Virus record (IMG/VR): IMGVR_UViG_3300043466_000571
Location: 1 to 23,587 of that record
Direction: 5' to 3' (one strand)
Length of the DNA stretch: 23,587 nucleotides
Source: a virus
Shown piece after piece: positions 3 through 10,220 of this stretch (position 1 is the stretch's first letter; the number at the start of each line of letters is the position of its first letter). Made by a program: the position numbers and the translations under genes. The notes beneath the pieces are model-generated. The model was not told where the DNA came from. It was given only the letters and a program-made list of their open reading frames with translations, and did not search any database.

Positions 3-503
3 CTTCAAGTTGAAGCAATGGCTTCTCATCTTGGTCAGTTTATCCATAAGAATGGTAAACTTACTCAGTTAAGAAAAGATCTACCTAATACTCCTAGTAT
101 TGAGTGGTTTGAAGTAGAACATGGTAAAAAGACTCCGGTTAAAGTTACCAAACACCATATTTCTGGTGTTTTACTAGCTGTTCATGAAGATATTGCTGCT
201 CAACACCGTATGTATGAACAACGTGTAAATTACTTTAAAGCTAAGGTCAAAAACTTAGTAAGTGATGAGAATGCACGTATTCAAAAAGAAAATGCAGATA
301 AGTCTGCAGAATTCTTAGCACTTGAAAAAACTCTTAATGAAGAGTATAAAACTGCTTTGGATGCATACAATGGTGAAAAGATTAGACTTACTCAAGAGTT
401 TAATGCTGATCGTGAAATGGCCATTAAAGGTGCTGCTGCATTGAGAATCAATGTTGACCCTAGATTTCAGCATGTTGTAGACATGTTCTTAACTGCTGAA
501 TAA
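3..503 (+). CDS. Conserved phage protein, coiled-coil, 5'-partial
   Basis: The reading frame is open to the left window edge, with five sense codons before the first ATG at 18, so the true start probably lies upstream. From that ATG there are 161 residues. The N-terminal half carries a short block that includes LGQFIH and GKKTPVKVT. It is followed by a long charged helix (about residues 55-135) rich in K, E, A and N, likely a coiled coil. I recall similar proteins in Bacteroidota phages but know no function. Half of its arginines use CGT rather than AGA, unlike most genes here, which hints at higher expression. A GC-rich hairpin at 514-548 follows the stop codon. Confidence 0.8.
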   Translation, partial: LQVEAMASHLGQFIHKNGKLTQLRKDLPNTPSIEWFEVEHGKKTPVKVTKHHISGVLLAVHEDIAAQHRMYEQRVNYFKAKVKNLVSDENARIQKENADKSAEFLALEKTLNEEYKTALDAYNGEKIRLTQEFNADREMAIKGAAALRINVDPRFQHVVDMFLTAE

Positions 504-513
504 GATATTAGGT

Positions 514-548
514 GAGTAAGAGGTAGGCATAAGCTGATCCTCTTACTC
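514..548 (+). terminator. Probable terminator hairpin after the first gene
   Basis: A perfect 10-bp stem (GAGTAAGAGG with CCTCTTACTC) encloses a 15-nt loop, 11 bases after the stop codon. Only a short T-tract (TTT) follows, so termination may be weak. It could also insulate the RNA element that begins a few bases downstream. Confidence 0.6.
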
Positions 549-553
549 TTTAT

Positions 554-810
554 ACCTAGTGACAGAAATTCTTAACTATAGCAAGTGGTTGATTACCACA
601 TTAAGAAAAAAATGTTTGTTATACATTTAAAACCGCTTCTCTTCGAACTTATAAAACTGAGATAGAACTCATTATCAGACAGGTTACTCCAAAGTGAGAT
701 AACTGGCTGATAACAATGAGACTTAGTATTTGTATTTGTCTTTGTATGAAGAGAAGGTCTTTGATTTTGTATTTGCATTTGATTTTAGCTATATATTTCT
801 GTCACTTGGT
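554..810 (+). ncRNA. Candidate structured RNA, about 257 nt, unknown class
   Basis: This gene-free stretch is closed by a long-range helix pairing 554-569 with 795-810 (15 of 16 positions). Inside it, 577-582 (TATAGC) pairs 788-793, hairpins form at 585-599 (GTGGT/ACCAC) and 610-628 (AAATGT/ACATTT), and a long arm is built from 636-644/748-756 (9 perfect bp), 656-661/722-727, 668-678/707-720 (11 bp with a 3-nt bulge) and 683-689/696-703. The plus strand is favoured because 659 with 724 makes a G-U pair there but an A-C mismatch on the other strand. The helices are nested and mutually compatible. I recognise no known RNA family. The pairing is seen; RNA function is inferred. An inverted-repeat DNA element is the main alternative, but no target-site duplication is visible. 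Confidence 0.6.
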
Positions 811-847
811 GACTAAAAATATTTAATCTGATTAAAAAATCTAAAAG

Positions 848-3592: not shown

Positions 3593-4066
3593 ATGGAAAA
3601 GCTTAAACAGAACGTAAAAGATTATCAGCTAAATGCTGGTAAAACATACATGCAGTATGAAACTGATAAATATAGTCAGTATCAAAACTATCTTTATAAA
3701 AGAGCACTGTATGGATTAGATGCATTGAGCCAAGAAGAATTGGCAACAATGTGTAGCAAAAAGAGACAAAGAATAATTAATGTTTATAGAAGATCTCAAG
3801 TTGTACTTAATAAGTTTAAACAACAAGTGACTATACAATATAGTAACTTTATCTTCAAGACTTTGTTTCCAAATGCACCTATTACTGATTTCTTACTGTC
3901 TGATACTCAGACAGATGATAAGGTAAAAAATACTCTAACTTTTAAAGATTTAAATATATCTAAAGACCAGATTATCAGTATATTTATAGCTGAAGGTGTG
4001 TTACCTAAAAACTTCTTAAGTTTAACACATGATCCTAACCAGTTGCCAAGACTGAAAGGAAAATAA
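3593..4066 (+). CDS. Conserved hypothetical protein
   Basis: The protein has 157 residues and is framed by strong terminators on both sides, so it is its own unit. It is tyrosine-, lysine- and glutamine-rich at the N-terminus, with a basic middle part (SKKRQRIINVYRRSQVVLNKFKQQ) that should form a long positively charged helix and could bind nucleic acid. The C-terminal part looks globular (ISIFIAEGVLPKNFLSL). I recall relatives in Bacteroidota phages without assigned function. Confidence 0.8.
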   Translation: MEKLKQNVKDYQLNAGKTYMQYETDKYSQYQNYLYKRALYGLDALSQEELATMCSKKRQRIINVYRRSQVVLNKFKQQVTIQYSNFIFKTLFPNAPITDFLLSDTQTDDKVKNTLTFKDLNISKDQIISIFIAEGVLPKNFLSLTHDPNQLPRLKGK

Positions 4067-4075
4067 GATTATAAT

Positions 4076-4110
4076 AGTCAGGATAGAGTAACATCTGTCC
4101 TGACTTTTTT
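4076..4110 (+). terminator. Strong intrinsic terminator
   Basis: A 10-bp stem pairs 4076-4085 (AGTCAGGATA) with 4096-4105 (TGTCCTGACT, one G-U pair), followed by TTTTTT. It ends the 3593-4066 unit. The long unit to 13981 starts downstream. Confidence 0.92.
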
Positions 4111-4127
4111 AACTAAAAAGATTTGAT

Positions 4128-4307
4128 ATGGAAAAAGAAACACTTGAAGAAGCTGCCAGAAATTGGTATAGTAATACAAAACTTTTTGATAAAGGTGAAT
4201 TAAATGCTTTCATAGCAGGTGTTAAATGGATGCAGGAACAAATGGAAAAACTAAAAGACTTTGACACATGGAAAGAATGGAAAAACAAAACCTTTAAATC
4301 AGAATAG
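4128..4307 (+). CDS. Short helical protein (59 aa)
   Basis: This small gene starts at ATG 4128, 18 nt after a terminator, and ends with TAG. The protein begins MEKETLEEAARNWY and carries the pattern FIAGVKWMQEQM. I recognise this pattern, Phe-Ile-x-Gly-x-Lys-Trp followed by a helix, as recurrent in very small proteins of Bacteroidota phages and gut or aquatic metagenomes. Function is unknown. Its last codons lie in the first copy of the 24-nt direct repeat, and its stop is only one base from the next start codon. Confidence 0.8.
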   Translation: MEKETLEEAARNWYSNTKLFDKGELNAFIAGVKWMQEQMEKLKDFDTWKEWKNKTFKSE

Positions 4308-4312
4308 AATGG
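4289..4312 (+). repeat. 24-nt direct repeat, copy 1
   Basis: This copy is identical to 4513-4536, 224 bp downstream. It begins AACCTTTAAATCAG and ends AGAATGG. It contains the stop codon of the upstream gene and the start codon of the next. Confidence 0.9.
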
Positions 4313-4521
4313 GAAAATATTATATACCTATAGTATGGCAATCATACAAAAGAATAGAAGTAGAAGCAGAAGATTTACATAGTGCTATTTATCAAGCATT
4401 AAAACAATTTTTGTCTGAACCTGATGATAATTACATCTGCGACAGTTTTGAAATTGATTCTATAATAGAAGAAGAAACTGGAGAGGAATATAATCTTGAT
4501 GATATATTAAATAACCTTTAA
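4309..4521 (+). CDS. Small acidic hypothetical protein between direct repeats
   Basis: The protein has 70 residues from the ATG at 4309; an upstream in-frame TTG at 4261 lies inside the preceding gene and is rejected. It starts GKYYIPIVWQSYKRIEVEA, a beta-hairpin-like region. This is followed by a helix (DLHSAIYQALKQFL) and a very acidic C-terminal half. The gene is bounded almost exactly by two copies of a 24-nt repeat, so it may be a cassette that can be gained or lost by recombination. Function is unknown. Confidence 0.75.
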   Translation: MGKYYIPIVWQSYKRIEVEAEDLHSAIYQALKQFLSEPDDNYICDSFEIDSIIEEETGEEYNLDDILNNL

Positions 4522-5492: not shown

Positions 5493-6584
5493 ATGACTAA
5501 AGATGAAGTTCAGTTAGAAGCATTAGCTATAACTGACGGTAAACAAAGATGTAGTGTAGTATTAGGTACCGGAGTTGGTAAGACTCTTGTAGGTCTGAAT
5601 CATATAGACAGGAATACTACACCTCTTATGAGAGTACTAATTGTGGCTCCAAAGAAAGCAATCTTCCAGTCTTGGATAGATGATGCTAAAAAGTTTGAGA
5701 AAAACTATTTATTAGATAGAATGGTATTTACTACTTATCTGAGTCTGAATAAACATAATCCTAATGACTATAACGCAGTTTATTTGGATGAAGCACATAG
5801 TTTATTAGACAGTCACCGGGGGTTTTTGCAGTTATACAAAGGTAAAATACTTGGTTTAACGGGTACTCCTCCAAAGAGAAATGACTCAGAAAAAGGTAAA
5901 TTAGTAAATGAATTCTGTCCTGTAGTATATACTTTCAAAGCTGATGATGCTATAGAAAGTAAAATACTGAATGATTACCAGATTGTAGTTCATGAACTGA
6001 ACTTATCTACAGAAAAAGATTATCTAGTAGATATGAGAGGTAAGAAGTTTATGACTAGTGAAGAACAGAATTATATTTATTGGTCAAAAAGGCTGGATGT
6101 TGGCTCTGGAAATGTGCATATGTTGAGAATCATGAGAATGAAAGCTTTAATGGAGTATCCTAGTAAGGAAAAATATGCTAAGCTTTTGTTTGATGATATA
6201 GATACTAAGTGTATTCTATTTGCTAATACTCAAGCTCAGGCAGATAAGTTATGTGACTATAGTTATCATAGTAATAATCCTGATTCAGAAGAAAACCTGC
6301 AAATGTTTAAAAATGGTGAGATTACTAAACTTTCTACTGTGCTCCAGTTAAATGAAGGTGTTAACATACCTAATCTTAGACAAGGTATTATCATGCATGC
6401 ATATGGTAATGAAAGAAAGTCAAGTCAAAGAATTGGTAGATTGCTCCGGTTAAATCCAGATGAGAAAGCTATTGTACATATCTTATGCTATATAGGTACT
6501 GTAGATGAAAAATGGGTAAAAGATTCTTTGGAAGACTTTGATCAGACAAAGATAATTTGGAGAAATTTTAATATCTCTGTGTAA
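5493..6584 (+). CDS. SF2 DEAH-box DNA helicase
   Basis: The protein has 363 residues from ATG 5493 (an in-frame TTG two codons earlier is possible). Motif I is GTGVGKT (25-31), motif Ia lies near VLIVAPKKA, motif II is DEAH (99-102) and motif III is LTGTP (122-126). The C-terminal helicase half ends with motif VI QRIGRLLRL. It is a minimal two-RecA-domain enzyme of the UvsW/type III restriction-helicase group, with no nuclease or accessory domain. It probably remodels branched DNA or R-loops during phage replication, powered by ATP. It follows the HNH gene by six bases. Confidence 0.93.
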   Translation: MTKDEVQLEALAITDGKQRCSVVLGTGVGKTLVGLNHIDRNTTPLMRVLIVAPKKAIFQSWIDDAKKFEKNYLLDRMVFTTYLSLNKHNPNDYNAVYLDEAHSLLDSHRGFLQLYKGKILGLTGTPPKRNDSEKGKLVNEFCPVVYTFKADDAIESKILNDYQIVVHELNLSTEKDYLVDMRGKKFMTSEEQNYIYWSKRLDVGSGNVHMLRIMRMKALMEYPSKEKYAKLLFDDIDTKCILFANTQAQADKLCDYSYHSNNPDSEENLQMFKNGEITKLSTVLQLNEGVNIPNLRQGIIMHAYGNERKSSQRIGRLLRLNPDEKAIVHILCYIGTVDEKWVKDSLEDFDQTKIIWRNFNISV

Positions 6585-9510: not shown

Positions 9511-10220
9511 TGAAACAAAATTTTGACGTTGAGGAAATTAAACAAAAAATGTTTGAAAAACTAAAACCAAGTGGTTGGGATAGAATTTTTAAATCTTTTA
9601 TATTTAGTTCTGATTTTGAAAGCATACTTAATAGTTTATGGAACCTTAGTAGTTCAGGTAAAAGATTTACACCACCACTTAAAGATATATTTAGAGCATT
9701 TGAAGAATGTCCGTTAGATTCACTTAAAGTAGTTGTTGTAGGTCAAGATCCTTACCCACAGTTTGGAGTTGCTGATGGTATTGCATTTAGTTGTAGTAAA
9801 ACAAATCAATTACAACCAAGTCTTAGATTTATTTTAAAAGAAGTAGATAAAACAGTATATACTAACAGTAAAGTCAGTGAAAATCTTGATCTTGCTAGAT
9901 GGTCAAATCAAGGTATACTGATGTTAAACACTGCTTTAACTACTGAAGTAAATAAAATTGGTCAACACTATTCTATTTGGAAAACATTTTTAGCATATTT
10001 GTTTGATTATTTATCCAATCATGTCAACGGACTAGTTTATGTTTACATGGGTAAACAAGCTAAAGAGTGGTCGGACTTGATAAATGATAATAACTACAAG
10101 TTTTTTGTTTCTCATCCTGCAAGTGCAGCTTATAACGGATCAGTCTGGGATAGTAAAAATGTATTTGTAGAGGTAAATGAGTTACTTAAAAAGAATTATA
10201 ATCAAGAAATTATTTGGTAA
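9510..10220 (+). CDS. ung: Uracil-DNA glycosylase, family 1
   Basis: The protein has 236 residues, the usual length for the family. It removes uracil from DNA by cutting the glycosidic bond. The water-activating motif is GQDPYP (78-83, catalytic D80), followed by FGVADGIAFS. The uracil-recognition strand is LMLNTALTTE (N140), and the leucine-loop region is HPASAAYNG (H202). The usual GQDPYH has Pro instead of His, and the last loop is shorter than in E. coli Ung. It overlaps the next start codon by one base (TAATG) and opens the replication-gene cluster, so it may protect new phage DNA from uracil. Confidence 0.95.
   Translation: MKQNFDVEEIKQKMFEKLKPSGWDRIFKSFIFSSDFESILNSLWNLSSSGKRFTPPLKDIFRAFEECPLDSLKVVVVGQDPYPQFGVADGIAFSCSKTNQLQPSLRFILKEVDKTVYTNSKVSENLDLARWSNQGILMLNTALTTEVNKIGQHYSIWKTFLAYLFDYLSNHVNGLVYVYMGKQAKEWSDLINDNNYKFFVSHPASAAYNGSVWDSKNVFVEVNELLKKNYNQEIIW

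Follow-up and report, generated by a model that had tools for sequence, protein, structure and literature searches.

The window, that is, the whole stretch of viral DNA analyzed here (23,587 nucleotides), opens with the truncated gene A (Table 1). This gene stops at position 503 and the next one starts at 848, which leaves 344 nt (504-847) without any gene on the plus strand, as had been stated in the preliminary description of this DNA. A minus-strand open reading frame of 61 amino acids (593-778) lies within the gap. It is not conserved, the longest minus-strand frame starting with ATG ranging from 1 to 46 amino acids in 18 homologues. The only Rfam match in the window is a tRNA-Arg at position 1424.

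To judge from its sequence, the plus strand of the gap codes for a structured and discrete RNA of some 309 nt (approximately 508-816). The folding energy of the region 540-830 is -72.2 kcal/mol, against -51.9 +/- 4.6 kcal/mol for shuffled sequences (z = -4.4), and none of the 200 shuffles folded as well. The plus-strand assignment made initially is borne out by a covariance model trained on 18 sequences of the P4-P5 arm, which scores 143 bits on the plus strand of the window whereas the reverse-strand scores in relatives do not exceed about 21 bits. The RNA occurs as a single copy per contig in the 16 long contigs checked. It had been presented at first as an undescribed multi-helix structured RNA, and this is supported on both counts: the helices covary in many homologues, as detailed below, and no Rfam family corresponds to it. 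Indeed, Rfam 15 returned no match for 480-870 at E values up to 10, nothing reached the gathering scores over the RNA in the window or in the loci of 30 relatives, and literature searches retrieved no report of it.

Several elements of the architecture proposed at the outset can be recognized in the final model, with some revisions. The extent originally given, 554-810, is correct for the body of the molecule (P1, P4 and the inner arm), and its two ends had to be moved outwards in order to include the P0 hairpin and the terminal helix P00. The closing helix, announced with 15 of 16 base pairs, exists as P1 with 14 of 15 pairs and one U-U mismatch. The 9-bp perfect segment corresponds to P4, and both the inner arm (P5) and the small hairpin P2 are present. 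A 6-bp second helix of the AUAGC/GCUAU type, on the other hand, is seen only in some members and is not counted as conserved.

Table 1. Position of gene A and of the elements of the structured RNA in the window
Feature	Position	Strand	Remarks
Gene A	3-503	+	Truncated at the 5' end by the window edge; 166 C-terminal residues of a ~303-aa protein
Whole structured RNA, ~309 nt	~508-816	+	Terminal helix, P0, P1, P4 and P5 kept in homologues
P00 terminal helix, 5' strand (UUAG)	508-511	+	Pairs with 813-816
P00 terminal helix, 3' strand (CUAA)	813-816	+	Pairs with 508-511
P0 hairpin	514-548	+	514-523/539-548, internal loop, tip 526-528/533-535, 4-nt loop
P1 closing helix, 5' strand	553-567	+	Strand-swap; re-found in relatives outside the model
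P1 closing helix, 3' strand	797-811	+	Strand-swap; re-found in relatives outside the model
P2 small hairpin, variable 5' internal region	585-599	+	~78% of cells paired
P4, 5' strand (CUUCUCUUC)	636-644	+	Strand-swap, double changes
P4, 3' strand (GAAGAGAAG)	748-756	+	Strand-swap, double changes
P4x, 5' strand (ACUGAG)	656-661	+	Pairs with 722-727
P5 arm	668-720	+	668-672/716-720, 673-678/707-712
P5 arm (continued)	668-720	+	680-682/703-705, 684-686/700-702, 687-689/696-698; bulged G683
R1, first UUGNNN array, 25 nt	720-744	+	Near-invariant G/U positions
R2, second UUGNNN array, 33 nt	756-788	+	Followed at 789 by the conserved CUAYA

The conservation of these helices was evaluated by exchanging their strands between phages. 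If the two strands of a helix evolved independently, such a swap should not lower the pairing. The proportion of paired positions falls from 94% to 64% in P1, from 99% to 76% in P4 and from 83% to 60% in P0, with 0/20,000 permutations as good in each case, and the 5' and 3' strands are therefore not evolving independently. The terminal helix P00, which appears in relatives as AUAUG/CAUAU, UUGAG/CUCAA, CUAAG/CUUAG or AAAAG/CUUUU, follows the same trend (20/20,000 permutations as good). In addition, P1 is absent from the covariance model and was nevertheless re-found in the blind set, with a median score of 25.5 for native strands against 16 for crossed ones. The helices are retained in homologues through compensatory changes: in the 18 sequences, both sides are changed at 7 of the 9 pairs of P4, and 5 of the 10 pairs of the P5 main helix also show double changes. 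Over the arm alignment of these 18 sequences, 99.0% of the cells pair, compared with 90.6% after shuffling and 33-55% when the partners are slid, and 13 pairs are altered on both sides. P4x is paired in 98% of the cells, and its nearly invariant sequence makes it weak evidence of covariation. The alignment was anchored on hand-chosen motifs. Against a tree-simulated null, only two pairs pass over all column pairs, 521-541 in P0 and 676-709 in P5, and about 8 of 70 pass when the test is confined to the structure; the first of these numbers is low because the null is inflated by the relatedness of the main group, and reliance was consequently placed on the strand-swap and blind tests. The per-pair covariation statistics are modest and the helix-level ones are strong.

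The remaining parts of the molecule are less uniform. The region between P1 and P4 is variable and contains small hairpins, among which P2 shows no significant covarying pair and is lineage-specific. P0 and P1 are joined by a linker of the UUUA type, and the bulged G of P5 is conserved. The tip of P0 carries a recurrent internal-loop motif, UAAGC-ACAA-GCYGAU, which may be a contact site for a protein or for a tertiary interaction. In five members (L054, L072, L101, L113 and L190), the P5 loop contains an additional conserved insertion that is common to them (CUGAAA...ACCACUAGACAG).

The RNA also carries a pair of UUGNNN arrays with a period of 6 nt, observed in every member. Among 28 diverse members, the G of the hexamer and the U's that precede it are invariant or nearly so, while the other positions vary. 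The length of R2 up to CUAYA is exactly 33 nt in all 57 members of the first set and in all 52 members of the blind set with a locatable end; outside this last count, R2 of L186 looks one base longer. Both arrays are located on the 3' side of the internal loops of the rod, and in many members a portion of R1 is base-paired to the 5' strand, which leaves only some of the UUG units free. When CAANNN arrays were sought in the window as antisense targets, only the complement of the RNA itself and one weak site (9763-9783, minus strand, one mismatch) were detected.

The distribution of the RNA was explored in IMG/VR, where 93 distinct cores were collected. When the C-terminal portion of gene A served as the query, 40 contigs were retrieved, and the element was found in all those with enough downstream DNA. 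Reciprocally, the conserved RNA repeat retrieved 71 contigs in which gene A, at 44-100% identity, lies upstream wherever the upstream DNA suffices; the sole exception (L051) is a contig that ends there. An alignment search with gene A added relatives at 49-60% identity, one of them on a 364.7-kb contig, and the RNA was present in 17 of the 17 divergent relatives inspected. A final search with the most divergent protein A yielded 76 relatives: the RNA lies downstream in 71 (E values from 2e-7 to 2e-30), and the five remaining contigs stop inside gene A or soon after it. The pair also occurs on very large contigs (L227, 434 kb; L254, 430 kb; L189 and L202, 365 kb; L207, 328 kb). No match was obtained in a phage collection, either by nucleotide search or by TBLASTN with gene A, hence no isolate is found there. 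In bacterial genomes, the array pattern was seen in 10 contigs, all attributed to chance as they contained neither gene A nor a confident match to the model, and gene A was not found in the genome contigs.

The window belongs to an environmental phage genome recorded in IMG/VR, and its DnaB helicase is closest to those of crAss-like gut phages. The terminase of a relative, on a contig of 142.5 kb, is closest to those of crAss-like phages and of phages of Bacteroides, Flavobacterium, Cellulophaga and Azobacteroides, which makes a Bacteroidota host likely. On the strength of the contigs compared, the RNA fold is conserved across many large crAss-like phages, always beside gene A.

On this same 142.5-kb contig, the structural genes are oriented leftward and those of an early/replication cassette rightward; about 5-6 kb into the latter cassette comes gene A, followed by the RNA. 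The RNA usually starts a few nt after the gene A stop codon, with one to three small genes interposed in some phages and a gap of up to about 0.8 kb. What comes next varies: over 64 loci, the proteins encoded downstream form 30 clusters. Arrays of tRNA genes adjoin gene A and the RNA in many large relatives, with dense arrays of many tRNAs within about 2-5 kb in L049, L062, L236, L215 and L190. Other elements were also met. In L179, a group I intron (4268-4455) and a GOLLD RNA (5522-5936, 306 bits) are located downstream of the structured RNA. The phage contig L243 matches the permuted tmRNA model of Rfam at 56-208 (53.7 bits for a gathering score of 47). In the early region of L119 (4390-6691), a nicotinamide phosphoribosyltransferase adjoins a cytidyltransferase/Nudix protein, likely an NAD salvage pair.

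The protein encoded by gene A, of about 303 amino acids, belongs to no Pfam family and no PHROG family. Its predicted model has a mean pLDDT of 84 and gave no confident match to solved structures and no recognizable RNA-binding fold; in a viral library, the only Foldseek match was an uncultured phage protein that is 45% identical to protein A. A prefoldin-like assignment (two helix-hairpin-helix units) was discarded, with a Z score of only about 4.7 among many equal rows.

The terminal helix, the single copy, the varied downstream genes and the small genes that can separate it from gene A all argue that the RNA is a discrete unit. In the reading that we favor, and to which we give an even chance, this unit would be the trans-acting scaffold of an RNA-protein particle, with a multi-site protein, most probably protein A, bound to its arrays. 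The comparisons show that the terminal helix joins the two ends of the RNA and opens onto a junction from which the P0 hairpin and the long rod made up of P1, P4 and P5 extend. Gene A and the RNA would be co-transcribed within the rightward cassette, the terminal helices allowing the RNA to be cut out or stabilized. The UUG units would then be read, at one per 6 nt, by a protein having several RNA-binding sites that are equivalent, and the best candidate is the product of the always-adjacent gene A, with which the RNA co-occurs strictly. A fuller version of this proposal is put forward more tentatively, with a confidence somewhat short of even: a phage ribonucleoprotein machine in which a multi-subunit protein A of new fold would read the UUGNNN arrays of a 310-nt scaffold, and which crAss-like phages of about 100 kb to 434 kb would have retained like a core function. 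By analogy with what was proposed for other large phage RNAs, the vicinity of tRNA arrays suggests that the RNA might be part of the translation and RNA-handling equipment of the phage. Against the scaffold stand the lack of a recognizable RNA-binding fold and of a confident match in the model of protein A, the pairing of part of R1 and the modest per-pair statistics. The strict synteny with gene A could also reflect a shared regulation or an essential neighborhood rather than binding.

Four other ways of accounting for the RNA, and one for its arrays, have to be weighed against the scaffold. A regulatory RNA acting on the host, one of the two roles suggested in the preliminary description, is retained among these rivals. 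The first is an ornate particle made of RNA only, self-assembling in the manner of GOLLD or ROOL, protein A being merely a conserved neighbor. The genomic setting is the same, since GOLLD and ROOL are found in phage genomes near tRNA islands (PMC12286853), and L179 contains a GOLLD as well. With a size that is half or less of theirs, no Rfam match and a strict link to a single protein that is not a described feature of either, this analogy looks unlikely. A second possibility, which we judge rather improbable, is a decoy whose UUGNNN arrays would titrate an RNA-binding protein of the host, for instance of the RRM type, and thereby redirect the control of host mRNAs. Arrays of a single motif at a fixed pitch do resemble a multi-site protein sponge, and Bacteroidota possess RRM-type proteins of global action, with a preference for single-stranded RNA (PMC11697453). 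The latter study, however, gives no UUG motif for RbpB, and a decoy alone would require neither a fixed length of 33 nt, nor a constant rod, nor a strict link with gene A.

Third comes a cis-acting element, such as a leader, an antitermination site or a 3'-UTR processing signal for the rightward operon, which the location about 6 kb into the cassette and a few nt past gene A would accommodate. The preliminary description had envisaged a processed leader of the following genes. This proposal is not supported: the downstream genes differ from phage to phage and may even be tRNA genes, hence the RNA is not the leader of one gene, and the conserved downstream family expected of a riboswitch or cis-leader is missing. 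In at least one jumbo relative (L189), moreover, a terminator-like hairpin identified by eye stands between the RNA and the following sequence, a simple terminator scan giving only one candidate in 67 loci. Considering also the small genes that may part the RNA from gene A, and closed ends and a long conserved rod that exceed the needs of a simple cis signal, a cis role of any kind is quite improbable.

A 6S-like promoter mimic, in which the R2 loop with its CUAUAUA would imitate an open Bacteroidota promoter and capture the host RNA polymerase, is very improbable: the long rod, its large internal loops and the fixed spacing of UUUG and UAUAUA in R2 are evocative, but the pattern TTTG-N19-21-TAnnTTTG (Bacteroidota promoter consensus) was found in 0 of 93 cores, R1 has no such element and Rfam gave no 6S match. 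Finally, that R1 and R2 encode alternating Val/Asp-Phe peptides is scarcely credible and was rejected, because the open frames and beta-strand-like pattern of both arrays in some members are offset by the lack of an in-frame ATG upstream of R2 (0 of 19 members checked), a 1-nt variation of the R1-R2 distance that breaks the frame, and a middle codon position as variable as the third.

Phages have few large structured non-coding RNAs, and most of these lack an explanation. In the present case, the strictly linked protein, the simplicity of the repeated motif and the number of natural variants make the mechanism directly testable. The RNA can also serve as a marker of a broad crAss-like lineage that includes environmental and jumbo phages, and it offers a lead to the role of the tRNA-rich region in such phages.

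Among known systems, two comparisons can be drawn besides GOLLD and ROOL. The first, to be taken as a lead only, is TRAP, a ring protein that reads GAG/UAG repeats, (G/U)AG at a pitch of about 5 nt. The arrays described here similarly present a short, evenly spaced motif in many copies, suggesting a multi-site reader, with UUG at a 6-nt pitch instead and no TRAP homologue seen. The OLE ribonucleoprotein is comparable only in that a large structured RNA works with proteins: OLE belongs to Gram-positive extremophiles and does not match this RNA, and the Pfam and PHROGs searches show no relationship between protein A and the partner proteins of OLE. GOLLD and ROOL are nearest in setting, the RNA being likewise phage-encoded and close to tRNA islands in L049, L062, L190, L236, L215 and others, but membership fails in both cases. 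GOLLD (RF02032) is also a large structured phage RNA of poorly understood function near tRNA genes. It often exceeds 800 nt, compared with about 310 nt here, does not match this RNA, and is separate from it in L179 (model match at 4036-4165); the UUGNNN arrays and the strict protein neighbor further set the two apart. ROOL, equally without assigned function, is about twice as long and has a different plan, and Rfam gave no match. In a broad sense, the RNA next to gene A can be placed with the other large phage RNAs whose function is unknown.
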